In this document: positions 26,410 through 41,927 of the stretch, in pieces
Numbering within the stretch: the stretch's first letter is position 1
Layout of the letters: each line of letters begins with the position of its first letter
DNA from: Archaeoglobus sp.
GTDB lineage: Archaea; Halobacteriota; Archaeoglobi; Archaeoglobales; Archaeoglobaceae
Assembly: GCA_017656505.1 (NCBI GenBank)
Contig: JACDNU010000016.1
Span: forward strand, 1-49,099
Direction: 5' to 3'
Length of the DNA: 49,099 nt
Notes under the pieces: generated by a model
What the model saw: the letters and a program-made list of their open reading frames with translations, nothing else
Database searches by the model: none
What the model was told of the DNA's origin: nothing
Made by a program: the position numbers and the translations under genes

Positions 26410-27087
26410 TTAAGCAAGAGTCCTAGGAATTAAACCCTGCATGATCATGCAATCGGCAAGAACGATAGCGACCATCGCCTCAATAACAGGAACCGCTCTT
26501 GGCACTATACAGGGATCATGCCTGCCCTTTATTATGACCTCAACTTCCTCCATTCTAGTGAAATCAACCGTCCTCTGTACTTTAGAAATCGAAGGTGTGG
26601 GTTTTATCGCAGCCCTAATAACTATATCTTCGCCGTTCGATATTCCGCCAAGGATTCCACCAGCGTTATTAGAGGCGAAAGCAACCTTACCGTTTTTGAT
26701 TATTATGGGATCGTTGTTTTCACTCCCTTTTAATTTTGAAACTTCAAATCCTCTCCCTATCTCCACACCTTTTACCGCCGGAACTCCCATTACTGCGTAA
26801 GCAAGGTAGGCATCTAGCTTTCCAAAAACCGGCTCTCCAAGGCCTGGAGGGAGGTTTCTGGCTACAACCTCAACGATGCCGCCCAATGAGTCGCCCTCTG
26901 CCATTGTCTGCCTCAACTTATCCTCAACCTCCTTCTCAGCCTTCCTGTCTGGACACCTCAGCGGACTTTTCTCTGCTCTCTCAAAGGCCTTTTCTATGCC
27001 ATCTACTTCACACCTTATTCCAGCGATTTCCCTTGCATAACCGTAAATCTTTATGTTGTAAATTTCAAGAATTTTCTTAGCAATGCT
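26410..27087 (-). pseudogene. aroC: 5'-truncated aroC (chorismate synthase)
   Basis: The frame is open from a stop at 27088-27090 to 26410, giving IAKKILEIYNIKIYGYAREIAG, then MAEGDSLGGIVEVVARNLPPGLGEPVF and GRHDPCIVPRAVPVIEAMVA, the C-terminal two thirds of chorismate synthase. About 130 N-terminal residues, including the FGESHG-type FMN/substrate region, are missing, so no activity is expected. It is followed by the aroA fragment, preserving a piece of a shikimate operon. Confidence 0.8.
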
Positions 27088-27151
27088 TTAATCTTATTGC
27101 ATCCATCCAATAGAAAAGCTTAAATACACTTTTAAAGTCAAAGCTTATTCA

Positions 27152-27190
27152 ATGAGAAAATTCTCTGGTGATGGACTTTGGCCTGAGTGA
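27152..27190 (+). other. Possible 12-codon leader ORF with a Trp codon before trpC
   Basis: ATG at 27152 encodes MRKFSGDGLWPE and stops inside the beginning of trpC. A TATA-like CTTAAATAC (27118-27126) would start transcription near this ATG, so it could be translated from the mRNA end. It may simply be untranslated leader. Confidence 0.25.
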
Positions 27191-27869
27191 TGCGATCAAG
27201 GTTTGCAAAGATCAGCAAATGAACCCCGTGATCGCGGAGATCAAATTCTATTCTCCAAAGCATGGTGATTTGCTTGGAAAAAGAGATCCGCTAAGGCTTT
27301 TGGAAGCTTACGAAAGAGGTGGAGCAGCGGGGATTTCTTACGTAACAGCTAGACAATTTGGGGGAGAGTTTAGCCTTCTCAGAAAAATTTGCAAGGAAAC
27401 AAACCTCCCAGTGCTTAGGAAGGATTTCATTCTTGACAAGTCTGAGATCGAGAGCACAGCTGAGGCTGATGCTTCGGCAATCCTGCTGATTACAAGATTT
27501 CTGAAAGATAGTACAGCAGAATTCGTCGATTACGCTTTGGAGCACGGTTTGGAAACTCTTGTGGAGGTACACAACCTTAACGAGATCGGAATTGCGAACG
27601 AGACTAAGACAACTATGGTAGGCATAAACAATCGGGACATAGCAAAGCTCGAGCTGGATGATGTCTCGGTTGAAGTGGCAGAAAGGCTTTACAGATTCGT
27701 AAAGAATGATGTTGTGAAGGTAAGCGAAAGCGGAATAAGAGGTTTAGAGGAGTTAAATAGGGCTTTGAAGGTTGCTGATGCCGTTCTGATAGGCACGGCA
27801 TCAATGCTTGCTGAAAATATCGAGGAAAAGATAAGGGAATTTGTTGGAGGTGGCGAATTTGGAGATTAG
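27171..27869 (+). CDS. trpC: Indole-3-glycerol phosphate synthase
   Basis: About 232 aa, full length for the short archaeal form. It closes the indole ring of CdRP in tryptophan synthesis. Signatures are NPVIAEIKFYSPKHG (catalytic Lys), LPVLRKDFI (general acid Lys), LVEVHN, GINNRDI and VSESGIRG. The start is the ATG at 27171 or the adjoining GTG at 27168; the only ribosome-site-like sequence (GGTG) overlaps it. It overlaps the start of the trpD fragment, so the pair was once part of a trp operon. It is the only complete aromatic biosynthesis gene in the island. Confidence 0.88.
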   Translation: MDFGLSDAIKVCKDQQMNPVIAEIKFYSPKHGDLLGKRDPLRLLEAYERGGAAGISYVTARQFGGEFSLLRKICKETNLPVLRKDFILDKSEIESTAEADASAILLITRFLKDSTAEFVDYALEHGLETLVEVHNLNEIGIANETKTTMVGINNRDIAKLELDDVSVEVAERLYRFVKNDVVKVSESGIRGLEELNRALKVADAVLIGTASMLAENIEEKIREFVGGGEFGD

Positions 27870-28091
27870 AAACGCCTTAAATAAACTCGTTGAAGGATAT
27901 AATCTGAGTGAGAAAGAAACTTATGACTTTGTTATAGCTTTAAAGGATAAAAAGCTCACTGATGCCCAGATAGGGGCATTTCTTCTCGGTCTTACAGTGA
28001 AAGGCCCAACGATCGAGGAGGTTGCAGGAATAGTCAGGGGGATGAAGGATGTGTGCAATGCCATAAAGCCGAGGGTTGAGAGGTTTGTCGA
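27859..28091 (+). pseudogene. trpD: 5' fragment of trpD (anthranilate phosphoribosyltransferase)
   Basis: A TTG at 27859 has a GGAGGTG ribosome site six bases upstream. The protein reads LNKLVEGYNLSEKETYDFVIA, then DAQIGAFLLGLTVKGPTIEEVAGIVRGM and ends RFVD, exactly where the PRPP motif CGTGGD should follow. The frame then enters transposase sequence and stops at 28143. Only the N-terminal helical domain remains. Confidence 0.75.
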
Positions 28092-28291
28092 CAAACGAAT
28101 GGGGAGATTAAGAGATTCTACAGAACTCTTAAAGTTAAGATGAAGTATTTCGATAGATAGATGAGTTTATTGATTGGTATGAGTCTTGATTTGGAAGAAT
28201 TAGAGACCCCTCATCAGGCTTTTCTGAGAAGGTTACCTCCTGAAAGGGAAAGGGACAATGGGTATGCATGGAGGTTGTTCCATGGCGAGAA
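28092..28291 (+). pseudogene. 3' remnant of a DDE transposase (IS481-like)
   Basis: Shifted frames give QTNGEIKRFYRTLKVKMKYF, then IDWYES, then LEELETPHQAFLRRLPPERE and a stop at 28289-28291. This is the C-terminus (last catalytic Glu region and YxxxRPHxxL-like tail) of an integrase-core transposase. A frameshift/stop lies near 28159. It begins abruptly at the trpD junction, so the 5' part is lost. It borders the catabolic cluster on the left. Confidence 0.6.
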
Positions 28292-28363: not shown

Positions 28364-29674
28364 ATGCAGAGTGAAGAATACTGGGATCCTAAAATAGAGT
28401 TAATGCAGCGAGGAGAATTGGAGAATTTACAGTTAAAGAGGTTGAAATATCAACTTCGTAGGTGTTATGAGCGATCAGCTTTCTTTAGACTAAAGTTTAA
28501 GAGAGCCGGTGTACAACCGGATGACATAAAAAAGTTGGATGACTTGTCTAAAGTTCCATTTCTTTTTAAAGGTGAGTTGCGAGAAGAGCAAAGGAGATAC
28601 GGTGTAAACAGATATATTATAGAAACAAAAAATTTAAGAGAGGCATATCCAACTTCTGGAACAACAGGGGCTCCAGTTCTGAGTTTTTGGACTGATAATG
28701 ACAAGGAATATATAATCGATGTCACTGCTCGAACACTCTGGAGTATGGGTTTAAGAGGAGAACATAAAGTCCAAAATGCATTTACCTATGAGTTGTGGGC
28801 CGCTGGTTTTTCTATTCATTACGCAGTTCAAAAAATCGGAGGATTTGTTTTACCAATCGGAAGCGGAAAAACAACACTACAAGTTAAGTATTTAATTGAA
28901 TTAGCTCCTGATGTTTTGGTAACAACACCCTCTCTTGCATTACGGATTGGTAGTAGATTGCAGGAACTTGGATTTGATGCTTCAGACCTTTCCTTAAAAT
29001 TTGGTGCATTTGGTGGAGAGCCTGGTACAGCCATACCCTCAACACGGAGGAGAATTGAGGGTATGTTAGGTATTGAGGCCTATGATTATTTTGGAATGGC
29101 TGAAATTGCACCAAGCTTCGCTTCTGAATGTAAAGAGAAGGCTGGATTGCATTGGAGTGAGGATTATCATCTTATTGAGGTAATCGACCCAAAGACTGGT
29201 GAAAGGGTAGAGGAAGGAGAAAAAGGAGTTTTAGTAATTACCCATTTAGTTAAAGAGGCAACACCGATGATAAGATACTGGACTGGGGATATAACAAAAC
29301 TAGAATACGAAAAATGTGCCTGTGGGAGGACCCATGTAAGGTCACCACAAGGCATACTTGGAAGGACTGACGACATGGTGATATATCAAGGAATTAGTTT
29401 CTATCCCAGCGAGGTTGAAGAGATTTTAAGGGAGTTTCCAGAATTGGGGCCTGAATATAAAATTTATTTTGAGAATGGTGGCATGGGTGGATCGAGTAAG
29501 TGTGTTGTAGAAGTTGAATATAATAAAGATTTGCATATAGAGGATCCATCAAAGCTCCAAGAAATTATCTCAGAGAGACTTTATGATTCTCTAGGAGTTT
29601 GGTTACATGTCCGAATTGTAGATAAACTCTTAACACCATATGTCGGATCAAAAATCAGACGCGTTTATCATTAA
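28364..29674 (+). CDS. PaaK-type aryl/acyl-CoA ligase (paralogue 1)
   Basis: 436 aa. Adenylate-forming CoA ligase of the phenylacetate-CoA ligase family: it activates a carboxylic acid with ATP, then forms the CoA thioester. ATP loop TSGTTGAPV (about residue 96), FGAFGGEPGT, AYDYFGMAEIAPSFASEC and YWTGDITKLE are family landmarks, as is the CACGRT cluster near 325. The C-terminal Lys domain is present. It resembles the second ligase at 36239 throughout, so the two are paralogues. A TATA-like GATATATATC (28331-28340) precedes it, and the ribosome site is weak. The acid is not identifiable; phenylacetate itself is not implied. Confidence 0.85.
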   Translation: MQSEEYWDPKIELMQRGELENLQLKRLKYQLRRCYERSAFFRLKFKRAGVQPDDIKKLDDLSKVPFLFKGELREEQRRYGVNRYIIETKNLREAYPTSGTTGAPVLSFWTDNDKEYIIDVTARTLWSMGLRGEHKVQNAFTYELWAAGFSIHYAVQKIGGFVLPIGSGKTTLQVKYLIELAPDVLVTTPSLALRIGSRLQELGFDASDLSLKFGAFGGEPGTAIPSTRRRIEGMLGIEAYDYFGMAEIAPSFASECKEKAGLHWSEDYHLIEVIDPKTGERVEEGEKGVLVITHLVKEATPMIRYWTGDITKLEYEKCACGRTHVRSPQGILGRTDDMVIYQGISFYPSEVEEILREFPELGPEYKIYFENGGMGGSSKCVVEVEYNKDLHIEDPSKLQEIISERLYDSLGVWLHVRIVDKLLTPYVGSKIRRVYH

Positions 29675-29679
29675 ATCTA

Positions 29680-30891
29680 TTATTCTTTACGCTCTAATCT
29701 AAATACCCTAATGAACATTAAAAAACCCAGCAAACTCAAACTGAGGCAAATCCTTATAATAAATGAATAACTTTGTGTAAATTCATAAGTATATCCTGCA
29801 AGATAAGAACCAATTAAACTAGCGAGACCTAAACTGGTAAAAGCTATTCCGTAATTTATACTCACATTTTTCTCTCCAAAATAAATTGCAACGATTACTG
29901 GGAGAGATACTATGAAACCACCATATGTTAAACCAATAAGTAAAGTACTTAGATAAAAAAATGTAGTTATTATTATATAACTTAATTTAGAAATAGTTAC
30001 TATGGAAAGTAGCCCTATAGCGAATAATGACAACAAGTGCAACATACATACAAACTTTATACCTATCAAATCTAGGAAATAACCTGTAATCAATCTTCCA
30101 AAAATGCTTGCGATCGCCAAAAAAATGATTCCCAGAATGTCAGTGAAAAGTATTGAATTTAAAAATTCAGTACTAATGGGTTGAAGATGGGAAGCTGCCA
30201 ACAATCCGTTAGTGAACGCACAAAAAAAAGAGGACCATATAAGAATAAACCTAGTTGTTTTTAACATTTTTAGGGGAGAATAATCAAGAATTTTATCTGA
30301 GTGTCTAGACTTAAACTCATTTATTTTAAGATTTTTAATTAATAGTGTACAAACCATACAAACAATCAAAAACAATATACCAATTATAAAAAAATTAACC
30401 CTCCAAGATGCGAAATTTAAGATTTCTTTTGATAAGATCGCTAGAATGACTGCACCTATACCAAAGCCACTAACAATTATTCCAGTAGCTATCCCTTTCT
30501 TTATTGGATGAATTACTCCTAGAGTAATTGACGTAAAGCTACCTAGTGCCAGCCCTACACCATAAATCACTCCAAAAGATAGATTTATCTGAAAAATTGA
30601 GGATGTTAATGAACTCAACAAAAAACCAATACCCATTAGAAATGTGCTGAGAAATACTGATACTCTAGGTCCATACCTCTTTATGAACCACCCCATAACA
30701 AGGCCGGAGAATCCGAGTATTAGACTTGCTATCATAAAAGGGGATGAAGTTGCAGCCCTACCACAATTAAATGAATCCTCTAAATAACTGACCCAGAGGC
30801 TCCAAATAAAAAAGCTACCAATACAAAATTGTATTAAGAACCCAGAGATTACTGGTCTTACTGCGAACTCTTCTTGAAGCTTTTCATACAT
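29680..30891 (-). CDS. MFS transporter, oxalate/formate antiporter-like (OFA) family
   Basis: 403 aa with about 12 membrane spans. N-terminal FIWSLWVSYLEDSF, the inter-helix loop GWFIKRYGPRVSVF, and GRLITGYFLDLIG in the second half fit the OFA-type monocarboxylate carriers. It is the last gene of the minus-strand operon with the FMN dehydrogenase (42-bp gap), so import of a hydroxy acid or export of a product acid is plausible. It converges on the first CoA ligase with a 5-bp gap. Confidence 0.8.
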   Translation of the reverse strand: MYEKLQEEFAVRPVISGFLIQFCIGSFFIWSLWVSYLEDSFNCGRAATSSPFMIASLILGFSGLVMGWFIKRYGPRVSVFLSTFLMGIGFLLSSLTSSIFQINLSFGVIYGVGLALGSFTSITLGVIHPIKKGIATGIIVSGFGIGAVILAILSKEILNFASWRVNFFIIGILFLIVCMVCTLLIKNLKINEFKSRHSDKILDYSPLKMLKTTRFILIWSSFFCAFTNGLLAASHLQPISTEFLNSILFTDILGIIFLAIASIFGRLITGYFLDLIGIKFVCMLHLLSLFAIGLLSIVTISKLSYIIITTFFYLSTLLIGLTYGGFIVSLPVIVAIYFGEKNVSINYGIAFTSLGLASLIGSYLAGYTYEFTQSYSFIIRICLSLSLLGFLMFIRVFRLERKE

Positions 30892-30933
30892 TTTTTGTTA
30901 AACCCCCAGTCAGTCTTCGGATTGGATTTCAGC

Positions 30934-31929
30934 TCAAAAAACTAGGATATCTTTTGCAACTTTTGCAATTTCGCTTACAGTTTTGCATCCACATATCGCC
31001 ATCGTTCTCCTCAGTTCCTCATTTATAGCATTGAATAGATTTACTATCCCGTCCTTTCCATCGGCAGCTAACCCGAGCATAGTTGCTGTACCCAATAAAA
31101 CACCTTTTGCACCAAGAGCTAAACCTTTTAAAACATCTGTACCTCTCCTAAAACCACTGTCTACTAAGATAGTAACTCCGGTTTCCTGGACATTTTTAAC
31201 TATGTTTGGCAAGACTTCCAACGGATGTGCTGCATAATCTAAAACCGCAGCACCATGATTGGATACAACAATTACATCTGCAAAGTTCGAAGCTTTTTTA
31301 GCATCACTTTCACTTAAAATCCCTTTAACGATAAAGGGGACTTTTAGAGTAGACGCAACATCTTCTAGCTCTTTTATTTTTTTTGGCCCCGTAACAGACT
31401 CAAGTATGAGCTTGTCACCAATCTTTCCCCCGTAAAAAAAGTCAATGTCAATTCCGGCTGCTATTACCCCAGCTTTCTCCGCAAAAGATAGTTCTTCGAT
31501 TATTTTTTCAGTTGCTTTATATGGTTTAGATATTTTTATTACTTTTGCTCCCGTGTCAATCATTTCAACTAATTGGTTTTTACTTCCTATTCCCATCCAA
31601 GCTAGTGTTCCAAGTTCTTTCATAGCCTCGGCAACAATTTTCAAAGGTTTAGATGCGAGATTTGCCATGCCACTGATTGCGCCACTCATTATGGGCATCT
31701 CAAGTTGTTGTCTGAATAGAGTTATTCTTGTGTCAATTTTAGATAAATCGGGTAAATCTTCCAAAAGTCTCATTTTCAAACGTATCCTGTTGAAATACTC
31801 CCTATTAAAAGAGGAAGTATATCCACTTTCAACTCCTCCTGCTTCGCCTAGGTATCTATTTATCCTGTCTACCTCATTGAGTGATTCTAACTTTTTTAAC
31901 CCAGCTTGAATTATTTTGTTATAACTCAT
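30934..31929 (-). CDS. FMN-dependent 2-hydroxyacid dehydrogenase family protein
   Basis: 331 aa. The TIM-barrel FMN family (lactate/glycolate oxidising enzymes, also related to IPP isomerase 2) is shown by MPIMSGAISGMANLA, PFIVKGILSESDA (FMN Lys), VVSNHGAAVLDY (catalytic His) and DSGFRRGTDVLKGLALGAKGVLLG (phosphate site). The usual GGRQLD after SNHG is AAVLD, so substrate may differ from lactate. Ribosome site AGGTGACC. It sits between the winged-helix regulator and the MFS carrier. Electrons would pass to a membrane acceptor (inference). Confidence 0.8.
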   Translation of the reverse strand: MSYNKIIQAGLKKLESLNEVDRINRYLGEAGGVESGYTSSFNREYFNRIRLKMRLLEDLPDLSKIDTRITLFRQQLEMPIMSGAISGMANLASKPLKIVAEAMKELGTLAWMGIGSKNQLVEMIDTGAKVIKISKPYKATEKIIEELSFAEKAGVIAAGIDIDFFYGGKIGDKLILESVTGPKKIKELEDVASTLKVPFIVKGILSESDAKKASNFADVIVVSNHGAAVLDYAAHPLEVLPNIVKNVQETGVTILVDSGFRRGTDVLKGLALGAKGVLLGTATMLGLAADGKDGIVNLFNAINEELRRTMAICGCKTVSEIAKVAKDILVF

Positions 31930-32013
31930 TTTTGGTCACCTTTGAAAACAACTTAAAAAATATGGAAAAAGTTATTCAATCTTCATTAAAGCCTGTGTTT
32001 TAGAAAACATCAT

Positions 32014-32514
32014 TTACGCTTCTTTTGCTGTTTTCTCACCTAATGGAGTCAATCTCACATAAACTCTAAATAGTCCACTCCTAGTAATGTACTTTTTTCC
32101 CTCTAACATCTCGCAAATAGAAGCTATCTCTTCAAGGGGTATGTTCGTCATAGAGGATATCTGATCATAATTGAGGTTTTTTCGCCTCCTCAAAAGCAAC
32201 TTAAGAATATTCAGACCATCCATATCAATGCCATATTTCTCTATAAGTTCTAGCTCTTCAGCCGATAGGTTCTCTGACACAGCTCTCTTTCCCTTTTCTG
32301 TGATTCTAAAGATATACCAGTTAATCCCACCACCGTTGCTCTCAATCATCTGCTCCTTTATAAGTTCGTCAACAAACTCTTTAACCTTCGCCAACCTTAT
32401 ACCTCTAGCCTCCTCACTGAAGCTAATGGAGTCTGTCAGGTCATTAAACTTATTCCTGTTTGTATATATCATTTTTAGTACTTTTATTTTTTGTTTTTCA
32501 ACTTCTTTTGTCAT
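32014..32514 (-). CDS. Winged-helix transcriptional regulator
   Basis: 166 aa with two winged-helix-like units: residues 8-70 (KVLKMIYTNRNKFNDLTDSI) ending WYIFRITEKGKRAV, and 100-166 (ILKLLLRRRKNLNYDQISSM) ending VRLTPLGEKTA. Highly charged, no membrane segment. It is embedded in the operon, starting 3 bp after the symporter stop, so it probably controls this catabolic cluster. Ligand unknown. Confidence 0.7.
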   Translation of the reverse strand: MTKEVEKQKIKVLKMIYTNRNKFNDLTDSISFSEEARGIRLAKVKEFVDELIKEQMIESNGGGINWYIFRITEKGKRAVSENLSAEELELIEKYGIDMDGLNILKLLLRRRKNLNYDQISSMTNIPLEEIASICEMLEGKKYITRSGLFRVYVRLTPLGEKTAKEA

Positions 32515-32517
32515 TTC

Positions 32518-33909
32518 TCACACCTTCCTGCCGATATACACAATGACATAGATGATCACTGCCACTACAATTGTAAGCCAAGTTGGATCTACAGTTTTAG
32601 AGATATAGCTAAACTGTACTATGAGGCCTATAACGGTAGGTACAATCAATAATATAAGAGCTAGTTTCTCGGTTAGTATTCTTAGGTATGCTGCATCAAT
32701 AAGAAGTAACAAAATTGGTGAATACAGCATTGTACCAAACACGTAGAATCTCACAGCTTGATATGGTGCAAATATTGCGAGTAATATTGCTATAGCGGAG
32801 AGCACTAGTACTATGACTCTTATATTCCTCATAGCTTTATCCTCTGGAATTTTCTTAAACTTCTTAATAAAGTCGTTCCACACTACCGTTGCCATACCCA
32901 TTGTTGTAGCGTCTGCAGTAGACATGGTCGCTGCGAAGAGTGCAACAAGCATTAAACCAACTAGCCACGGTATTCCGACTTTAGTAAGGATGTTTCCAAG
33001 TACCCCTACACCCTTAAGCCCAGGTCCTAATAATACATAGCCATAGAGCCCGATAATAGCACCAAGAACTGCAAGTATTATCGCAGCAATTCCTCCAGCA
33101 ATAAAACCCAGTTTTAGTGTTTTCTCACTCCTAACAGCAGCTCCTCTTTGCCAATAGTATGCACCTCCCCATACTAGCAGTAGGTTAAACATTAACATTG
33201 ACATCACTGCAGGACTCTTCCATCCAAAAAATGGGATCGTTCCTATGCCAATTACCAATTTCTGAGGAGATATTGGATGTGGCCCTGTAAACAAGTAATC
33301 CCATCCAAAAGTAGATACGAAATATATAACAAGTCCGAGTATACCCACTGTTGCGAAAATTATTTGGAGCACATCAGTTACAGTTACTGACCATAACCCA
33401 CCAGTAGCAATATACAGTGACATTAGTATGCCCACTAGCAAAATACCTAAGTTTCTGTCTATTCCAAAAAACCCACTTAACACGCTTCCCACACCTACAT
33501 ACTGGATTGCGGTTAGGAAGAACAAAGAGTACACCAACAAAGCTCCCACTATTACTCTAGAGGAAGTGCCATGAAAGGCTTCAATAGCTTCTGCAGGAGT
33601 ATAAGCACCACTTCTCCTTGAGAATATCCCTATAACAAAGGGGTAGGCGAGAGTCATTATCCCCCATGCCCACCAAATCCATACCCCTCCAAATCCAAAT
33701 ACGTAAGAATATGCAATTAAAAGGGGAAGGAATCCTCCTGATACACAAATGGATACTTGTGCAGCTGCTGTCACAAACGCTCCTACTTCTCTACCACACA
33801 CAATCAATGAACTTTCTCTTGTAGCCCATTTTCGTACAAATACGATTCCAGCCAATATTATTGCTAAGCTATATATCAGGATAGCCATTAACACCTCAAT
33901 ATTAGCCAT
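32518..33909 (-). CDS. Sodium:solute symporter (SSS family)
   Basis: 463 aa, about 13 membrane helices. The SSS core is seen in GFGGVWIWWAWGIMTLAYPFV, RSGAYTPAEAIEAFHG, YIATGGLWSVTVTDVLQ (helix 5 signature) and FAATMSTADATTMGMATVV, where the conserved Ser/Thr bind sodium. It imports an organic solute with sodium. Ribosome site GGTGGTG. It lies between the M24 hydrolase and the regulator, so its solute is probably what the hydrolase acts on (inference). Confidence 0.88.
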   Translation of the reverse strand: MANIEVLMAILIYSLAIILAGIVFVRKWATRESSLIVCGREVGAFVTAAAQVSICVSGGFLPLLIAYSYVFGFGGVWIWWAWGIMTLAYPFVIGIFSRRSGAYTPAEAIEAFHGTSSRVIVGALLVYSLFFLTAIQYVGVGSVLSGFFGIDRNLGILLVGILMSLYIATGGLWSVTVTDVLQIIFATVGILGLVIYFVSTFGWDYLFTGPHPISPQKLVIGIGTIPFFGWKSPAVMSMLMFNLLLVWGGAYYWQRGAAVRSEKTLKLGFIAGGIAAIILAVLGAIIGLYGYVLLGPGLKGVGVLGNILTKVGIPWLVGLMLVALFAATMSTADATTMGMATVVWNDFIKKFKKIPEDKAMRNIRVIVLVLSAIAILLAIFAPYQAVRFYVFGTMLYSPILLLLIDAAYLRILTEKLALILLIVPTVIGLIVQFSYISKTVDPTWLTIVVAVIIYVIVYIGRKV

Positions 33910-33972
33910 TCTTACACCACCTTCCCTGTTGTTTGTTAATCTTTAAATATTATAAACGATTGAAAAAAAAAT

Positions 33973-35289
33973 TTAGAACTTTAGCGGACAACACTCGATG
34001 ATGTGGTCGTCTGGAAACTTATCCAAGTCTTCCCATCCTGTCTCCGTTACGACAATCATTTTTTCTATTCTCACTCCCTGTCCATACTTACAGCCTTCTT
34101 GGGTCTCTATAGCAAACACATGTCCTGGTTCAAGGCGGTAAGGATGCTCAATAGACCAGATTGTATTACCTTGTGGTGGTCCATAATTGACAAGGCCAAG
34201 ACCATGCATAAGATTGTCTCCCCAGGCCCAATCTGGTTCTACTCCCCAGTATTCTCGTTCATCAAGCCATGCCTCAGCCATGTCTTTGGTGGTATTTCCT
34301 GGTTTACATTTCTTAAGAGCAGCATATAGGCGATCATATGCTCTTTGATAAGCATCTTTATACTCTTCGCGCATAGGCCTTCCTGCACTACAATAAAAGG
34401 TTCGGTAGTAACATGTTAGATATCCATTCCATGATATTTGAATGTTATCAGCAAATATCAAATCTCCAGGTCTAATGAATCTATCTGTCATATTTCGATA
34501 ATTAGGCCACGTATTCTCACCGGAAGCTACAAAACTTTCTCCTGTAGTTTCTGCCCCCATTTTCATGGCTGTATACCTCATAAGGCCTGCAAGTTCATAT
34601 TCTGTTCTACCAGGTTTTATATTATTCGCAAGCACGTAATGGCACACATCACCTATAGCTGCTGCCATCCTAAGACACTCTATCTCATCTCTAGTTTTTA
34701 TTTCTTGGGCCTTAATCCACACTTCTGGTTTTACATCTGTCTTTATACCGACTTTTTCGAGAGCAGAGATGGCATGAGGATCCTGTGAATCTAATACTAA
34801 AGTTTCTTTCTCCAGCCCCATCTCTTTGAGAGTCTCTTTTATTTGCTCTCCAAACTTTCTCAATTGTACTGCATGTGCTTCAGGATGGACAACTAAACCC
34901 AAAGCCATACCTCCTACGCAAGAAGGAATTGCGTATCGAAGATTCTTTGGATCTAACCATTTCATATGCCTCCGATCATGTATTGTTGGTGTTCCATGAC
35001 CAAATACTACGGGTTGTATATCTTCTCTAGGAACTACACTGTAAGTTAATCCACTTGTATAAGCCATACACTTGTGCCCCGTAGCGTATCTAGTATTGTG
35101 TGGAAGCAGATTCAGCATCACTTCTACACCATATTCCTTCATTTTACTTCTAAGCCTCTCAAGTCTTTCTTTTCTCATTCTATCCATGTTAATGCGCTCT
35201 CTGAAGTCCACTATCTGCCTCCCAAAACACCTTCCGTCGTATTGTGGATACACTTCGTTGTATACTACATACGGATCTAATTCTCCCAC
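33973..35289 (-). CDS. M24-family hydrolase (creatinase/prolidase fold) with altered metal site
   Basis: About 438 aa. The N-terminal creatinase-like domain (about 40-190) is followed by a pita-bread domain (about 205-435). Metal-site positions read Asp (FADNIQI), Cys where the second Asp of SDxTRTF belongs (TCYYRTF), His (MHGLGLV), Glu (AIETQEG) and Glu (VRIEKMI). Creatinase shows that this fold can work without metals. The substrate may be an imino-N compound or dipeptide-like solute (inference). Start: GTG at 35289 with GGGGGTGA upstream is preferred over TTG at 35304. First gene of the five-gene operon. Confidence 0.8.
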   Translation of the reverse strand: MGELDPYVVYNEVYPQYDGRCFGRQIVDFRERINMDRMRKERLERLRSKMKEYGVEVMLNLLPHNTRYATGHKCMAYTSGLTYSVVPREDIQPVVFGHGTPTIHDRRHMKWLDPKNLRYAIPSCVGGMALGLVVHPEAHAVQLRKFGEQIKETLKEMGLEKETLVLDSQDPHAISALEKVGIKTDVKPEVWIKAQEIKTRDEIECLRMAAAIGDVCHYVLANNIKPGRTEYELAGLMRYTAMKMGAETTGESFVASGENTWPNYRNMTDRFIRPGDLIFADNIQISWNGYLTCYYRTFYCSAGRPMREEYKDAYQRAYDRLYAALKKCKPGNTTKDMAEAWLDEREYWGVEPDWAWGDNLMHGLGLVNYGPPQGNTIWSIEHPYRLEPGHVFAIETQEGCKYGQGVRIEKMIVVTETGWEDLDKFPDDHIIECCPLKF

Positions 35290-35304
35290 ATTTTTCACCC
35301 CCAA

Positions 35305-36200
35305 ACGATCAATGTGTTTAAGCTTCTAATATTTAAATTTTTCTTTCAGATAGTATTGATAAAAATAAAAATTCTTTATAAATATATAGTTTCCGAAACT
35401 GTTCTCAGCCAACCTCTGCAAAGTCATCTTTTCACTAATCCCAAACAACAATCTCTATTAAAAGAAGATTCGTTCAATGTAGCAAACTTATAAACAGATC
35501 TCATTGTATATTTTCCTAAACTCATCTTTTATAATTAATTTTATTGGTTTGAAATCCTTCCAATTCCTTAGCGATAGCAATCTGATCTTCAAAAAACTTA
35601 AATCTCTTTCCTCAAACTCTTAGACTTGAACATGGCCAAAAGATAAACTTAGCAATCTATCCAATCTTTCTTATTTTGATGTTATTCTGGAAAAGATTTA
35701 AAGGAACAATCCTGTATTCATTTAATAAAAACCCACGCTAAATTAAAACATCCTCTCATTTAGTATTTTTCTTCTTTTCAGTTTATAACATAATCGTTGG
35801 ATAATTAAAGTGAAATTTATTTCAAATCTACCGTTAAATCACATTTTTCTTTCTCAAAGTGCTTAGCTGATAAAGGTTGAAGCTGAAACAAGCCAATAAC
35901 ATTTTAATTCCTGCTCTGGCAAAGTAAATTGTATGTGCTGGAATTATAATACTTACTTTACTATAGCAAAGGTCTCTCACCTAGGTTCTCTTCCTAGTAA
36001 CTCTTTTGTCGTGAAGCTTATTTTTCTCTTCTATTGTAAAAAGAATGTCCCCTGACCTTCTCGTTGTAGCATCTTAAACCTTCGAATTTTACTTCGAGTA
36101 TTCTTTATCCTTATGCACTACACCAATCTAATTTAAGATCTTATTTGTTAAATTAATTTCTTAATAAAAACAAAATAACCGAAAAATTTAAATATAAAAA
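35305..36200. other. Long AT-rich divergent intergenic region
   Basis: About 0.9 kb between the divergent catabolic operons with no convincing intact gene. It should hold both promoters. On the minus strand around 35834-36090 there are two coding-like stretches, one reading ATTRRSGDILFTIEEKNKL, the other FARAGIKMLLACFSFNLYQL before a stop. They resemble the tail of an IS transposase but are broken by stops. The upstream part (35340-35830) shows nothing I can name. Confidence 0.4.
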
Positions 36201-36238
36201 TTTAGATTGAGGGAATAGTTTATGTAGGAGGTGAAGAG
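36190..36238 (+). promoter_or_regulatory. Promoter and ribosome site of the ligase-F420-dehydratase operon
   Basis: TATA-like TTTAAATATA (36187-36197) precedes the TTG start by about 45 bp. A strong GGAGGTGA (36227-36234) lies five bases before TTG at 36239, which decides that start. Confidence 0.5.
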
Positions 36239-37570
36239 TTGAAAGGGGAATATTGGGATCCTGAAATTGAAAAAATGCATAGAGATGAACTAGAGAAACT
36301 TCAACTAAAAAAGCTAAAGTGGCAAGTAGAGAGAGCATACAACAACTCCGAATTTTACAGAGAGAAATTCAAAGGAGCAGGTGTTACACCTGAAGATATA
36401 AAAAAGCTTGATGACGTCTCTAAATTACCCATTTTGACGAAAACTGATTTAAGAAAGGAGCAGACCAAATTTCCTCCATTTGGCAGATATACAGTTGCTC
36501 CAAAATCGGAATGGAGTGAGTTACATCCATCCACAGGAACAACTGGAATTCCGGTAAACACAATTTGGTCGTTTAATGATGTTGACACAATAACTGATCA
36601 TACTGCCAGAATAATGTGGGGATTTGGTGTAAGAAAAGAAGATATAGCACAGAATGCTTACAGCTATGGTCTATGGGTTGCAGGTTTGGCCGTTCATTAT
36701 GCTTGCAGAAAAATCGGTTCATTCGTTATTCCAATAGGTGCTACATCTTCTGAGAGACAGATATACTTTTTACAAAATGCTGGTTCAACAGTTTTGCTCG
36801 CTACCCCATCATTTGGTTTATACATAGCCGAAAAGCTGAAAGAAAAGAATGTTAACCCCAAGGATATCGAACTGAGAATTGGATCCTTTGGAGGGGAAGC
36901 TGGAACTGAAAATCCGGCTACGAGAAGAAGGTTAGAAGAGGGATTGGGAATTGATGCCTATGACATTTATGGGCTGGCTGAAATTGGTCCAACTTTTGCT
37001 GCAGAATGTAAAGAGAAAGCAGGACTCCATTTTGTTGAAGACCACTACTTGCTGGAAGTTTTAGATCCAGAGACTAAAGAGCCGTTAAGCCCGGGAGAGA
37101 AAGGTGTCCTTGTTATAACTCATTTGAGTAGAGAAGCAACTCCAATGATAAGGTATTGGACAAACGATATTGTAAAATTAGAAGATGAGAAGTGCGGATG
37201 TGGGAGAACACATGTAAGGGCTGTTGGTGGAATACTAGGAAGAGCCGATGACATGATTGTTTTTAAGGGAGAGAACATCTATCCAACCCAGGTGGAAGAG
37301 GTAGTGAGATCTTTTAAGGAGTTAAGCAACGAGTACAAAATAGTAGTCACAAAAGATAGAAAAACAGGAATTGTAAAAGAGGTGAAAGCTATCGTTGAGG
37401 TTGTAAGCGACAAATATGATATTCAACATCTAAAGACCAAGGTTGCAAAGGCTTTGCGGGATGCCTTAATGGTAAGAGTTGATGTAGACATTTTACCTCC
37501 TAACTCCTTGGAGAGGACAGAGTTCAAAGCTAAAAGAGTAGAGTTTGTGGAAGGAGGTGAAAACTCCTGA
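36239..37570 (+). CDS. PaaK-type aryl/acyl-CoA ligase (paralogue 2)
   Basis: 443 aa, TTG start with a near-perfect ribosome site. Same family and length as the ligase at 28364: ATP loop STGTTGIPV, IGSFGGEAGT, AYDIYGLAEIGPTFAAEC, RYWTNDIVKL, CGCGRT, and a C-terminal RM/ACT-like domain ending KAKRVEF. It should generate a CoA thioester from a carboxylic acid. The next gene starts by overlapping its stop codon (CTGA), so the product likely works with the F420-type oxidoreductase and, further down, 4-hydroxybutyryl-CoA dehydratase. Substrate not determined. Confidence 0.87.
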   Translation: MKGEYWDPEIEKMHRDELEKLQLKKLKWQVERAYNNSEFYREKFKGAGVTPEDIKKLDDVSKLPILTKTDLRKEQTKFPPFGRYTVAPKSEWSELHPSTGTTGIPVNTIWSFNDVDTITDHTARIMWGFGVRKEDIAQNAYSYGLWVAGLAVHYACRKIGSFVIPIGATSSERQIYFLQNAGSTVLLATPSFGLYIAEKLKEKNVNPKDIELRIGSFGGEAGTENPATRRRLEEGLGIDAYDIYGLAEIGPTFAAECKEKAGLHFVEDHYLLEVLDPETKEPLSPGEKGVLVITHLSREATPMIRYWTNDIVKLEDEKCGCGRTHVRAVGGILGRADDMIVFKGENIYPTQVEEVVRSFKELSNEYKIVVTKDRKTGIVKEVKAIVEVVSDKYDIQHLKTKVAKALRDALMVRVDVDILPPNSLERTEFKAKRVEFVEGGENS

Positions 37571-38607
37571 TAAAGTTTGGAAATTTACTCCCAATTCCAG
37601 CAGCTCCTGTTGATAGTCTAATAAAAATTGCTCAGAGATCAGAAAAAGCTGGGTTTAATTCCATATGGGTTGCAGACCACTTACTAATGATCCCAACAGG
37701 AATTGTGCCTGAGGCTTTCACCCTTCTGAGCGCGATTGCAATGGTTACAGAGAGAGCTCAAATTGGAACGTGTGTTTCAGACCCTCACAGAAGGCATCCA
37801 GCAGTTTTCGCCCAGATGGTCGCAACTCTTGATCAGATATCCAGAGGCAGAACGATCGTTGGATTAGGGCCAGGAGAGGCTATGAACCTTGAACAGTTCA
37901 GTATATCATGGAACAAACCCGTTGCAAGAATGGCTGAATTCGTTGAGATTATCAGAGAATTATGGAATGGCAATAAACTCACTTATAATGGAAAGTTTTG
38001 GAGGTTGCGTGATGCGTTGCTTCAAATAAAACCTGCCAAAAGAATTCCGATATACTTTGGAGCCAACGGACCTAGAACAAGAGAACTAACTGCAAAGCTT
38101 GCTAATGGTTGGCTACCCACTCCAAGAACCCCCCAACTATATAAAAAGCATCTGAGCGAGATAAAAAGGACTGCTGAAAAAATAAATAGATCTCTTGGAG
38201 ATTTTGATCCTGCATTATATGTATACACAGCAGTAAGTGAAAGGTATGAAAATGCTTTTCTACAGCTCAAAAAAATAAAGCCACAAATTGCATTTTTCCC
38301 CAAGGTTATTGAAGAGGCGGGATACAACGTGGAAATACCAGAACACCTCGGAAAAAATCTGTATTCGGAAATAATCCTCAGCAACGAAGGACTGAAAAAA
38401 TATGAGGAATTCGGTAAATACATCCCTGATGAGGTTGTCGAGGATTTCTCAATCGTTGGAACCCCTGAAGACTGTATTTCGAGAGTGGAAGAATTCGTAA
38501 AAGCTGGAGTGAGACACTTTATTCTCATAAACATGGGTCCTGATCCGAGGTACGTCTTAGAAATTTACTCTAAAAAGATAATCCCCAGTTTCCATGAAAT
38601 TCACTGA
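37567..38607 (+). CDS. LLM-class F420-dependent oxidoreductase (Mer/luciferase fold), CTG start
   Basis: 346 aa if started at CTG 37567. The first ATG (37687) would delete forty conserved residues (IKFGNLLPIP, AEKAGFNSIWVADH-type region). GGAGGTGA ends six bases before this CTG, which overlaps the ligase stop as CTGA. The TIM-barrel bacterial-luciferase family is clear: GTCVSDPHRRHPAVFAQ, LDQISRGRTIVGLGPGE, IPIYFGANGPRTREL, VGTPEDCISRVEEF. In F420-containing archaea such proteins transfer hydride between F420 and a substrate such as methylene-H4MPT. Here an operon role in acid degradation is more likely (inference). Confidence 0.85.
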   Translation: MIKFGNLLPIPAAPVDSLIKIAQRSEKAGFNSIWVADHLLMIPTGIVPEAFTLLSAIAMVTERAQIGTCVSDPHRRHPAVFAQMVATLDQISRGRTIVGLGPGEAMNLEQFSISWNKPVARMAEFVEIIRELWNGNKLTYNGKFWRLRDALLQIKPAKRIPIYFGANGPRTRELTAKLANGWLPTPRTPQLYKKHLSEIKRTAEKINRSLGDFDPALYVYTAVSERYENAFLQLKKIKPQIAFFPKVIEEAGYNVEIPEHLGKNLYSEIILSNEGLKKYEEFGKYIPDEVVEDFSIVGTPEDCISRVEEFVKAGVRHFILINMGPDPRYVLEIYSKKIIPSFHEIH

Positions 38608-38661
38608 TGTATTTGAATGTAGTGGTTAGGATGTTTATTAAAGAAGTTTTAAGGTGGAAAG

Positions 38662-38817
38662 ATGATGACATTGATTCCGGTAGGACACAGATACTTGAGC
38701 TTTAAAGCTCTAAAAGTTGCGATAGAGGATGCTAAGTTACACTCCCTTTCTTCATTCAATACTATATATAATTTAATTTCTAAATTTAATAAAATTTTTG
38801 GAGGTGAAATGAAATGA
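38662..38817 (+). CDS. Possible small protein before the dehydratase gene
   Basis: 51 codons from ATG 38662 (GGTGG five bases upstream), reading LIPVGHRYLSFKALKVAIED and ending NKIFGGEMK. Its stop overlaps the dehydratase ATG (ATGA). A TATA-like ACTATATATAA (38761-38771) lies inside it, so it may instead be promoter sequence for the dehydratase. Confidence 0.25.
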   Translation: MMTLIPVGHRYLSFKALKVAIEDAKLHSLSSFNTIYNLISKFNKIFGGEMK

Positions 38818-40343
38818 TGAACGGAAAGGAATACATCGAGAGTTTGAGAAAATATAAACCTATGATATATTTTCTTGGCAGAAAGATCGATAGTGTTGTG
38901 GATGAACCAATGTTCAGACCTCACATACATGCAGCAGCAATGACTTATGAGCTTGCATATGATCCCAGATATGAGGATGTGATGACTGCAACCTCCCACC
39001 TAACTGGTGAGAAAATCAATCGCTTCACCCATATCCATCAGGGTGTTGAGGATCTCGTTAAGAAAGTAAGGATGATGAGATTACTTGGCCAAAAAACAGG
39101 TACTTGCTTCCAGAGATGCGTTGGCTTTGATGCTTTGAATGCCATCTACATAACTACTTACGATATTGACAAAAAACATGGGACGGACTACCACCAGAGA
39201 TTCGTTGAATATCTCAAAGAAGTTCAGAAAAATGATCTGATGTGTGTGGGAGCTATGACCGATGTTAAGGGGGATCGCGGCAAAAGGCCACATGAACAAG
39301 CAGATCCTGATTTATACGTTCACCTCGTGGAAAAAAGAGAGGATGGAATAGTGGTGAGGGGAGCAAAGGCCCACATGACGGGGGCTATGAACTCGCATGA
39401 AGTTATAGTGATGCCAACTAGGGCTTTAGGCCCGGAAGATAAGGATTATGCTATTTCTTTTGCCGTACCAATAGATGCTGAAGGATTGGTAAACATCTTT
39501 GTTAGGCAAACGAACGACACGAGGAGGCTTGATGGCGACATAGATTGTGGGAATGCAAAATATGGAATAGTTGGTGGAGAGACTTTGATGATTTTCAACG
39601 ATGTCTTTGTGCCTTGGGATCGCGTATTCATGTGCGGGGAATACGACTTTGCCTACGAACTCGTTGAAACTTTCGCAACCTTCCATAGGCAGAATTATGG
39701 CGGCTGCAAGGTTGGTGTTGCTGATGTTCTAATTGGTGGGGCAGCAAATCTAGCAGAATACAATGGGGTTCCCAAGGCCTCGCACATAATTGACAAACTT
39801 ACAGAGATGATTCATATGGCAGAAACCTGCTGGTGCTGCTCCCTAGCATGCTCAAGTGAGGGATACAAAACACCTTCTGGTGCTTACGTTCCAAATCCTT
39901 TGCTTGCGAATGTGACCAAATTAAACGTTACTAGATTTCCGTATGAGTGGTCAAGACTCGCCCAAGACATTGCTGGCGGTTTTGTCATTACAACACCTTC
40001 GGAGAGAGACTACAAGAATCCCGAGACAAGAGAACTCGTGGAGAAGTACATGAAAGGAATAGCTGATTTGCCAACCGAACAGAGGTTAAGAATGTTCAGA
40101 CTTGTGGAGAATCTTGCTGTTGGAGCCCAGCTTCCAGAATCGATGCACGGAGCGGGATCGCCGGCAGCGCAGAAGATAATGATATGGAGAAGAGGTAATG
40201 TAGACATGAAAAAAGAGTTGGCAAAAGTCATAGCGGGGATAAAACCAGATGAAAACTTCCAGAAAATAACGGGAAAGACTGAGGAGGAGTTCTTCAAAGA
40301 AATCGTTGAAAAGGCGAGGAGAGAGTGGTATGGAGGGGAATAA
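38814..40343 (+). CDS. abfD: 4-hydroxybutyryl-CoA dehydratase / vinylacetyl-CoA isomerase
   Basis: 509 aa, full length. The [4Fe-4S]/FAD enzyme dehydrates 4-hydroxybutyryl-CoA to crotonyl-CoA. The cluster ligands known from the clostridial enzyme are all present at nearly identical numbering: Cys98 and Cys102 (CFQRC), His291 and Cys298 (HRQNYGGC). FAD-site stretches and MTGAMNSHEV also match. Strong ribosome site GAGGTGA. The upstream ligases could make the CoA ester substrate. The family also includes HpaB-type oxygenases, which lack these ligands, so the call is firm at enzyme level. Crotonyl-CoA would enter beta-oxidation encoded elsewhere. Confidence 0.93.
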   Translation: MMNGKEYIESLRKYKPMIYFLGRKIDSVVDEPMFRPHIHAAAMTYELAYDPRYEDVMTATSHLTGEKINRFTHIHQGVEDLVKKVRMMRLLGQKTGTCFQRCVGFDALNAIYITTYDIDKKHGTDYHQRFVEYLKEVQKNDLMCVGAMTDVKGDRGKRPHEQADPDLYVHLVEKREDGIVVRGAKAHMTGAMNSHEVIVMPTRALGPEDKDYAISFAVPIDAEGLVNIFVRQTNDTRRLDGDIDCGNAKYGIVGGETLMIFNDVFVPWDRVFMCGEYDFAYELVETFATFHRQNYGGCKVGVADVLIGGAANLAEYNGVPKASHIIDKLTEMIHMAETCWCCSLACSSEGYKTPSGAYVPNPLLANVTKLNVTRFPYEWSRLAQDIAGGFVITTPSERDYKNPETRELVEKYMKGIADLPTEQRLRMFRLVENLAVGAQLPESMHGAGSPAAQKIMIWRRGNVDMKKELAKVIAGIKPDENFQKITGKTEEEFFKEIVEKARREWYGGE

Positions 40344-40480
40344 AGTGGATAGTTGTAGAGACAGGGCTATGCTAGGAAAGTATTCAGTAGGAGATGCAAG
40401 TGTAACACAAGATTATAATGCAAAAGATTCATGAACCACCGGAAAACCATGAGGATTTTTGAAATTAAGGTATTGGGGGG

Positions 40481-40750
40481 ATGAAGATCGGAATAAAGTA
40501 CTGTGGAGGCTGTAATCCCACTTACGAGAGGGAAAAAATAGAAAAAACGATCAGGAAGAACTTCAATGCCGAAATCGTTTACACATCTAGCCTAGAAAAC
40601 GTTGATGTGCTTGTGTTCATTAATGGTTGCAAACATGCATGTGCAATCGAGTCGATTGGATCACCTGAAAGCAGGAGGGTTGTCTTATTTGATGAACTAA
40701 AAGATGAGTTAGAACTCATCAATGAAATAAAATCAGCTCTGAAGAGATAA
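40481..40750 (+). CDS. Small CGGC/Cys-motif protein linked to the dehydratase gene
   Basis: 89 aa. It opens MKIGIKYCGGCNPTYEREK and has a second cysteine pair in FINGCKHACAI, separated by a small alpha/beta segment. The four cysteines could bind a metal or Fe-S cluster. I have the impression that YCGGCNP-type proteins recur in anaerobe operons, but function is not known to me. It lies 137 bp after abfD and ends 1 bp before the next gene. A role in cluster insertion or protection of the dehydratase is speculation. Confidence 0.6.
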   Translation: MKIGIKYCGGCNPTYEREKIEKTIRKNFNAEIVYTSSLENVDVLVFINGCKHACAIESIGSPESRRVVLFDELKDELELINEIKSALKR

Positions 40751-40751
40751 A

Positions 40752-41243
40752 ATGTCTTGCATGAACCTCAAGGACTTAGATTTGAAAAAAGCTTTAAAAG
40801 ACATATTTGATGATGAGTTTAGGGAAAAAGCTAGAAAATTGAAAGAAATAGGTCCATTCGATCCATTATCTCTTATAATTTTTACAAGAGCTGCTGAGTT
40901 TTCTGCAATCAAAAATGATCTTGTGATTCCCTCTAAACTTGATCTTCAAAAGATGTTTGATACCAGAGATGGTTTTTCGTGTGCGATTCTTAATACCTTA
41001 AAAGATATAATCTTCAACCAGTACATTTCAGAAATCAGACAAGGAAAAGGACCCTTGCTGGAGTGCATTGAAGATTTGGTTTATGTGCTCAATCGAATCG
41101 AAGAAATTCAGTTCAGAATAGATAATGTCATCCTGAATCTAAGGGATGAAATACTTTGGAAAAAGAACGAAATTCTAGAGGTTTATATAAAGCTGATTAA
41201 TCTGCTACTTGAGTGGTGTCTTATCCCAAATTTATTTCAGTAA
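40752..41243 (+). CDS. Unknown helical protein, 3' end altered by an IS insertion
   Basis: 163 aa, no family recognised, mostly helical (LKKALKDIFDDEFREKARKL, FDPLSLIIFTRAAEFSAI). The last nine residues (WCLIPNLFQ) are encoded by the left end of the IS beginning at 41217. Without the insertion the frame would run LLLEI and stop just beyond the IS, so only the tail was changed. It follows the CGGC gene with a 1-bp gap and is probably in the same operon. Confidence 0.5.
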   Translation: MSCMNLKDLDLKKALKDIFDDEFREKARKLKEIGPFDPLSLIIFTRAAEFSAIKNDLVIPSKLDLQKMFDTRDGFSCAILNTLKDIIFNQYISEIRQGKGPLLECIEDLVYVLNRIEEIQFRIDNVILNLRDEILWKKNEILEVYIKLINLLLEWCLIPNLFQ

Positions 41244-41927
41244 GCATTTTTCAACATGCGTGAGAAAACTAACGAACAAGAAGATCAGATGGATAATCAG
41301 ACAGCTCAACAAGAAAACACCAATTAAAGAAATAGCAGCTGTGATGAGAGTAACAGAGAGAAGAATCTACCAGCTGCAAAAAGAGTTCAGAGAAACAGAC
41401 AGAATCCCTGAGCTAAAACAACCGGGAAGAAAAGCAAAGCCAATTACGAAGGAAACAGAGGAAATAATTCTTAAGGCTTACAGAAAATCCAAACTAAGTC
41501 CAGTAACCCTAGAAAAGATAATAGAGAAGGAATACGACATTCACATACCTCACAACACCATCTACAAAGTTATGCTAAAACATGGTTTGGTGAAAGAGAA
41601 CATGAACAAGAAAAGGCAGAGGAAGTGGGTTAGGTATGAAAGAGAACATTCATAGCTATGGCAGGGAGACTGGAAAAGGATCAGTTTGACTGGAAGAAGC
41701 AAGTGGATAATAGCCTTCATAGACGATGCTAGTCGTTTAATCACCTATTATGGCATTTTTGATAGAGCAACTACCGAGAACACAATAAAAGTCCTGCGGA
41801 AAGGTTTTATTGAATATGGAACTCCTGATGAAATACTCACAGATCTTGAACAGTTCATTGCTGAGATAGTTCTTGATTACAGCAGGAGGTGGTTTTTTGA
41901 AGAGTGAAATTAATTCGGGATAAGACA
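41217..41927 (+). mobile_element. Degenerate insertion sequence with 24-bp terminal inverted repeats
   Basis: Left end TGTCTTATCCCAAATTTATT (from 41217) and right end (reverse strand from 41927) TGTCTTATCCCGAATTAATT match at 22 of 24 positions. The 711-bp interior carries a broken transposase lacking its C-terminal third, so it is a deleted copy. A possible TGAG duplication (left copy three bases from the repeat) is weak. Confidence 0.75.
41260..41907 (+). pseudogene. Broken DDE transposase of the 41217 IS
   Basis: GTG at 41260 begins a helix-turn-helix region (IRQLNKKTPIKEIAAVMRVT, RIYQLQKEF), then IHIPHNTIYKVMLKHGLV. A TAG at 41653-41655 interrupts the frame before LWQGDW, and the catalytic core resumes (WIIAFIDDASRLITYYGIFD, YGTPDEILTD). 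After ILTD the usual NG-xQF is reduced to LEQF and the C-terminus is lost. IS481/integrase-core type, inactive. Confidence 0.75.

Follow-up and report, generated by a model that had tools for sequence, protein, structure and literature searches.

A composite catabolic locus in Archaeoglobus: a conserved core for putative acid activation and dehydration, with an exchanged front end

Introduction

Contig JACDNU010000016.1 of the Archaeoglobus sp. assembly GCA_017656505.1, analysed here over its full 49,099 nucleotides (the window; contig C16 of a 2.52-Mb genome in 95 contigs, 99.6% complete), carries catabolic genes at positions 28364-41243 that raise the question whether they serve one degradation pathway, and for which class of substrate. 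They encode two PaaK-type (phenylacetate-CoA-ligase-like) acyl-CoA ligases, an F420-type oxidoreductase, a protein of the 4-hydroxybutyryl-CoA dehydratase type, an M24-family enzyme, a sodium symporter, a flavin mononucleotide (FMN) enzyme, a major facilitator superfamily (MFS) carrier and a putative regulator. A first-pass annotation, made from the letters and open frames alone, had read them as one set in which a compound is imported and hydrolysed and the C4 acids released are activated and dehydrated to crotonyl-CoA. All the genes it named are present with intact frames, and family searches agree with them; as a single pathway set, however, the cluster gives way to two modules, one of them mostly specific to this genome and placed where sibling genomes carry a Liv importer.

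Materials and Methods

Every open reading frame of the region was scanned against NCBIfam and Pfam. The comparison set consisted of 58 other genomes of the class Archaeoglobi, and a wider sample of 393 genomes of the phylum; genomes are numbered with G, loci with L. Liv genes were identified with Pfam for the substrate-binding protein and by eye for the permease and ATPase genes; transporter genes near M24 relatives were likewise recognised by eye or, in some cases, with Pfam. The M24 relatives were chosen by two conserved motifs, and this sample favours close kin.

Results and Discussion

A conserved core and an exchanged importer

The core consists of the genes for the two ligases (PaaK1 and PaaK2), a Mer-like luciferase-like (LLM) oxidoreductase, the HpaB-family dehydratase-type protein (HpaB) and a small CGGC protein, and it is found whole or in part in six other genomes of five genera, presumably all Archaeoglobaceae. 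The order PaaK2-LLM-HpaB-CGGC is kept in G010, G012, G029 and G031, with PaaK1 within about 5-8 kb; G020 retains LLM-HpaB-CGGC on a short contig, and G051 retains LLM-HpaB with PaaK1 nearby. Because this gene order recurs in other genera, the core is not a chance grouping. Orthologs are 57-69% identical for PaaK1 (five sibling loci), 78-91% for PaaK2 (the four genomes with conserved order) and 64-88% for LLM. Both ligases have the expected Pfam domains and stay below the NCBIfam PaaK equivalog cut-off of 646.3 bits (316.7 and 358.9 bits; PaaK1 scores 317-332 bits across PaaK models with cut-offs of 646-700). PaaK2 matches 2-hydroxyisobutyryl-CoA synthetase with 247 bits, a PaaK-type enzyme of solved structure that activates a hydroxy acid (6hdw). 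Both window proteins are best read as candidate acid-CoA ligases.

The space between the two ligases differs among genomes. In G010 and G012 it holds five Liv-type ABC importer genes, and Liv-type genes also lie between the ligases in G031 and G029, where PaaK1 is inverted; in the window it is filled, on the opposite strand, by genes for the MFS carrier, the FMN enzyme, a helix-turn-helix (HTH) regulator, a symporter of the sodium:solute symporter (SSS) family and the M24 enzyme. Across the 58 other Archaeoglobi genomes, neither the M24 protein (at E 1e-20) nor the symporter (at E<=1e-40) has a match, and the MFS carrier has no ortholog in the class, other proteins reaching at most 32% identity. 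The FMN enzyme has a single ortholog in the class (G033, 74%), in a different gene context, and the window's genome lacks an ortholog of LivK (best relative 30% identical). Since the M24, SSS and MFS genes are genome-specific at the place where siblings carry a Liv importer, the gene set is two modules, a LivKHMGF-type front end having been swapped in this genome for the M24-SSS-HTH-FMN-MFS block. Co-occurrence elsewhere, named as a check in the first-pass annotation, is thus seen for the core (in four genomes, and partly in G020 and G051) and for the most part not for the block.

The dehydratase-type protein and its CGGC partner

HpaB matches AbfD (PDB 1U8V) over its length (phmmer E 1.3e-184). 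The [4Fe-4S] cluster of AbfD is bound by C99, C103, H292 and C299, and its active site includes T190, Y296 and K300; the four ligands align with C98, C102, H291 and C298 of HpaB, which bears out the earlier reading of a complete ligand set, and the three active-site residues are identical at the aligned positions. On these residues HpaB would be an AbfD-type radical dehydratase, and CoA activation followed by dehydration would fit them. Archaeoglobus fulgidus has three 4-hydroxybutyryl-CoA dehydratase homologs, AF0333 among them, with an unsettled role (PMC3949148). The CFQRC and HxxxxxxC motifs are present in 20 of 20 AF0333-type sequences, and a tree of 25 sequences unites the seven cluster-linked HpaB proteins in a single clade (100/100); G051 has both a cluster-type and a stand-alone copy. 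In the other loci of the Archaeoglobaceae HpaB is accompanied by the CGGC protein only. Of the 19 AF0333-type sibling loci fetched, 17 have the CGGC gene next to HpaB or close by; the four cysteines of this protein are invariant in 18 aligned sequences, and it matches no Pfam or NCBIfam model. HpaB matches outside the class (G073, G082 and G189 in the phylum sample) have no LLM or PaaK hit nearby. Recoding of in-frame stops in sibling HpaB genes was considered and rejected: the stops appear to fall at the C-terminal ends of over-extended alignments, and the frames are open throughout the HpaB homology.

The F420-type oxidoreductase

The presence of an F420-type oxidoreductase stands, and its apparent start moves from ATG 37687 to CTG 37567-37569, which overlaps the PaaK2 stop codon and is preceded by a GGAGG motif. 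Homology covers the whole N-terminus; the CTG lies in the same CTGATAAA context in G010 and G012, while the aligned codon in G051 is ATG. A start further upstream is precluded by the in-frame TGA at 37558-37560.

The nearest solved structure is Mer, the F420-dependent methylene-tetrahydromethanopterin (methylene-H4MPT) reductase (PDB 8QPM), with which LLM shares the luciferase-like family; LLM differs from it in having Leu for the catalytic Glu6 and GPGE for GPGD, and its scores against the NCBIfam Mer models (198.7 and 187.3 bits) fall below the cut-offs (276 and 348.7). In jMer, Glu6 is catalytic, and a Gln variant retains 0.4% of kcat (PMC11094777); as LLM lacks this residue, methylene-H4MPT reduction is unlikely, and identity with Mer is rejected. 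LLM may instead be another F420-dependent hydride transferase; the range of the luciferase-like F420 family has been described (PMC8498797). In two further loci, L108:6471-9397 (G047) and L109:5809-8707 (G046), an LLM relative follows a 620-aa flavoenzyme of the BaiCD/OYE type.

The M24 and FMN enzymes of the exchanged block

Membership of the M24 family, proposed earlier for a hydrolase gene, is upheld (PF00557, 109.7 bits against a cut-off of 23; TM 0.6-0.8 to M24 structures), and the canonical metal site is not: Cys298 takes the second conserved metal-ligand position, Asp in canonical M24 proteins, and is Cys in 91 of 91 sequences. D286, C298, Y299, Y300, R301, T302, H367, E400 and E414 are invariant among these 91 aligned relatives. 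An AlphaFold model (pLDDT 80.7, pTM 0.83) has its nearest fold in DddP (TM 0.75-0.77), the dimethylsulfoniopropionate (DMSP) lyase (PDB 4RZY, 4S01), which is also the nearest named sequence family; the geometry at C298 is read from the sequence alignment. The metal ligands of DddP are D295, D297, D307, H371, E406 and E421 (PMC4108388). D295, H371, E406 and E421 are kept, whereas D297 is replaced by I288, D307 by C298, and D377, the residue mutated in 4S01, by Asn; the NCBIfam DddP score is 87.7 bits against a cut-off of 600. With metal ligands and D377 differing, a DMSP lyase is rejected. The protein is not a standard hydrolase by these residues, and it belongs to a widespread subfamily with Cys for a metal-binding Asp.

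Relatives of this Cys-type M24 protein occur at 36-39% identity in 22 phylum-sample genomes (haloarchaeal-looking by sequence character). Identity is 43% for those of a single-cell crenarchaeote genome and of Caldivirga, and 36-43% for those of Desulfarculus, SAR324, Rokubacteria and numerous Proteobacteria. Importer genes adjoin several of them: Liv genes in Desulfarculus (L152), an SSS-like gene in L101, an MFS gene in Caldivirga (L112) and TRAP/TTT-like genes in several Proteobacteria. Relatives of the window's own SSS, MFS, HTH and FMN proteins were not found near M24 loci elsewhere at E 1e-8. Frequent bacterial neighbours are a PPDK_N/PEP-utiliser protein (49 of 79 loci; for example L117:11263-12585) and a D-2-hydroxyacid dehydrogenase (33 of 79). 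In the crenarchaeote (L110), genes for a Mer-like LLM (34% identical), an HpaB-family protein, the M24 enzyme, a second LLM-like protein and a Zn-alcohol-dehydrogenase-like protein are consecutive; this single-cell contig (L110:869-5620) reads as a mirrored (palindromic) assembly. No literature on the Cys-type M24 subfamily or on the gene set was found, most subscription journals lying outside the search.

The FMN enzyme belongs to the 2-hydroxyacid dehydrogenase superfamily, as proposed, and departs from the specific enzyme. It shares the FMN domain, the SNHG motif and the VKG lysine with the glycolate/lactate oxidase family (FMN_dh), and keeps the catalytic His; yet its motif is SNHGAAVLD, where paralogs of the class have SNHGGRVLD, and Ala (Thr in the G033 ortholog) stands in place of the family's conserved carboxylate-binding Arg. 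With this Arg lost, an ordinary 2-hydroxyacid dehydrogenase is rejected.

Gene content and edges of the cluster

Coordinates are collected in Table 1. The gene set listed at first pass is correct and incomplete, since the CGGC protein and X163 also belong to the cluster; X163 has no match in Pfam or in the sibling core loci. The HTH gene follows the symporter gene by 3 bp. Insertion sequence relics had been proposed at both ends. The transposase-like HTH fragment agrees with this at the right; the left edge (26410-28143) instead consists of trpC between two truncated genes, of which aroC keeps its C-terminal and trpD its N-terminal part; contig C63 carries another trpD-like gene. Further left, at 24100-25326, a full-length tyrosine recombinase of the Phage_integrase family is encoded, which includes a zinc ribbon. 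The M24 and PaaK2 genes diverge from an intergenic gap of 934 bp (35305-36238; 28.8% GC). Third-position GC is 0.26-0.40 in PaaK1, the block and PaaK2-LLM, 0.44 in HpaB and 0.47-0.57 in four flanking genes, in line with a possible mobile origin of the whole island; the block is not singled out by this measure.

Table 1. Features of the catabolic cluster and its right end (window coordinates).
Feature	Position	Strand	Basis
PaaK1, PaaK-type acyl-CoA ligase	28364..29674	+	Pfam AMP-binding, AMP-binding_C_2
MFS carrier, oxalate/formate/L-lactate subfamily-like	29680..30891	-	NCBIfam SfMCT, 218 bits (cut-off 320)
FMN enzyme, 2-hydroxyacid dehydrogenase superfamily, without carboxylate-binding Arg	30934..31929	-	PF01070; SNHGAAVLD
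Winged-helix-like putative regulator (HTH)	32014..32514	-	weak PF24409 match below cut-off; position
SSS-family sodium:solute symporter	32518..33909	-	PF00474
Cys-substituted M24-family enzyme (D286, C298, H367, E400, E414)	33973..35304	-	PF00557; alignment; AlphaFold model
PaaK2, PaaK-type acyl-CoA ligase	36239..37570	+	NCBIfam/Pfam; sibling orthologs
Mer-like LLM F420-type oxidoreductase, CTG start	37567..38607	+	family match; orthologs
HpaB-family Fe-S/FAD protein, 4-hydroxybutyryl-CoA dehydratase type, AF0333 group	38814..40343	+	AbfD match; tree
Small CGGC protein, four invariant Cys	40481..40750	+	recurrence near HpaB; alignment
X163, open reading frame, function unknown	40752..41243	+	no Pfam match
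Transposase-like HTH fragment, right end	41209..41655	+	HTH_32, HTH_28 and similar, around or below Pfam cut-offs

A tentative pathway and its alternatives

The locus likely takes up and processes a 4-hydroxy (or 4-oxo) acid, which it would activate with CoA and dehydrate to a 2-enoyl-CoA. The reading we prefer, at somewhat less than even confidence, is a modular catabolic island in which the conserved activation and dehydration core and the exchanged front end work in one pathway. The SSS symporter would import a larger precursor, to be cleaved by the Cys-type M24 enzyme; the acid released would feed the core, where the PaaK-type ligases would turn imported organic acid into a CoA thioester, LLM might interconvert carbonyl and alcohol (for example 4-oxo to 4-hydroxy acid), and HpaB would dehydrate the 4-hydroxyacyl-CoA by the radical mechanism of AbfD to a 2-enoyl-CoA destined for beta-oxidation, which for a C4 acid would be crotonyl-CoA. 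The CGGC protein could act as carrier or redox partner for the Fe-S cluster of HpaB, the FMN enzyme could oxidise another precursor fragment, and the MFS carrier could move a monocarboxylate. Import and hydrolysis are plausible as a front end, since in G051 genes for an SSS-family symporter and for an autoproteolytic acyltransferase/hydrolase of the C45 family lie beside LLM-HpaB; CoA-transferase subunits are also part of that cluster. The parallels in G051 and L110 point to LLM-HpaB as a fixed centre around which the importer, the front-end enzyme and the CoA-activation step can be exchanged.

Several observations weigh against this island as one pathway. The combination of M24 and core is found in no other Archaeoglobi genome, so that the joining of the modules rests on their position in one genome, where they lie on opposite strands across the intergenic gap. 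The HpaB-family protein of L110 lacks the CxxxC ligands, which makes that parallel a different reaction, and the LLM relatives in G046 and G047 adjoin a BaiCD/OYE-type reductase instead of HpaB, so that an enoate-reducing or ring-processing role would also fit LLM. Strand, gap and the genome-specific genes, the trpD and aroC remnants that attest rearrangement at the left, and the different context of the FMN ortholog in G033 would all suit two unrelated modules, the M24-SSS-HTH-FMN-MFS block having been inserted between the ligases with a pathway of its own while the core acts on another compound or has lost its importer. This is a real, if doubtful, possibility; the block occupies the siblings' importer place and holds importers itself, and M24 relatives elsewhere adjoin importers and, in the one crenarchaeote, LLM and HpaB-family genes.

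Two other readings concern the chemistry. The orthology of HpaB to AbfD would agree with a plain C4 pathway, in which a precursor releases 4-hydroxybutyrate or γ-aminobutyrate (GABA) for activation and dehydration to crotonyl-CoA; but the cluster has no GABA transaminase or succinate-semialdehyde enzyme, 4-hydroxybutyrate alone would need neither LLM nor a second ligase, and the sequence does not give the substrate size, so that we regard this as unlikely. Degradation of aromatic or cyclic acids by the core, with the ligases activating aryl acids and LLM and HpaB acting on ring intermediates, appears still less probable. It would suit the PaaK proteins, whose nearest relatives are phenylacetate-CoA ligases, the monooxygenase-type HpaB of L110 and the LLM relatives that adjoin BaiCD/OYE-type reductases; against it, the window's HpaB has every dehydratase Fe-S ligand, G051 has a CoA-transferase in place of PaaK2, and a ring-reducing enzyme is not seen in the cluster. 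Returning to the modular island, its boldest extension would make the Cys-type M24 proteins, present in haloarchaea, thermophilic crenarchaea and numerous Proteobacteria, a new class of enzymes that cleave an imported compound at a Cys-for-Asp metal site; here the class would have been joined to an exchangeable 4-hydroxyacyl-CoA dehydration core that uses F420, and the two would form a complete, novel degradation route. We consider this rather unlikely as a whole. The core exceeds a chance grouping, but the cluster is composite, and the single-pathway C4 reading is one option among several.

With these findings, the AF0333-type dehydratase group gains a catabolic context of F420-type oxidoreductase, CoA ligases and a testable substrate class. 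For the widespread Cys-type M24 subfamily, with its invariant residues listed, a single biochemical finding would serve to annotate proteins in several phyla, and the importer and front-end swap indicates how an archaeal catabolic island may change its substrate while its core chemistry is kept.

Comparison with known systems

Succinyl-CoA reductase and succinic semialdehyde reductase, known from the 3-hydroxypropionate/4-hydroxybutyrate and dicarboxylate/4-hydroxybutyrate cycles, are not seen in the cluster, the rest of the genome not having been searched. Clostridial 4-hydroxybutyrate fermentation resembles the window in its AbfD, all of whose ligands and active-site residues recur in HpaB, and in the CoA-activation genes nearby. 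The clostridial set comprises a CoA-transferase and an NAD-dependent 4-hydroxybutyrate dehydrogenase; in the window PaaK-type ligases stand for the former and the F420-type LLM for the latter, and the CGGC protein, the importer swap and the M24 enzyme are additional. Closer at hand is G001, which we take to be A. fulgidus, its HpaB positions fitting AF0333 and two paralogs; the putative AF0333 gene encodes an HpaB protein 79% identical to that of the window and is likewise followed by a CGGC protein. AF0333 has neither LLM nor PaaK genes beside it, in contrast to the window's HpaB, which falls into the separate, cluster-linked clade.

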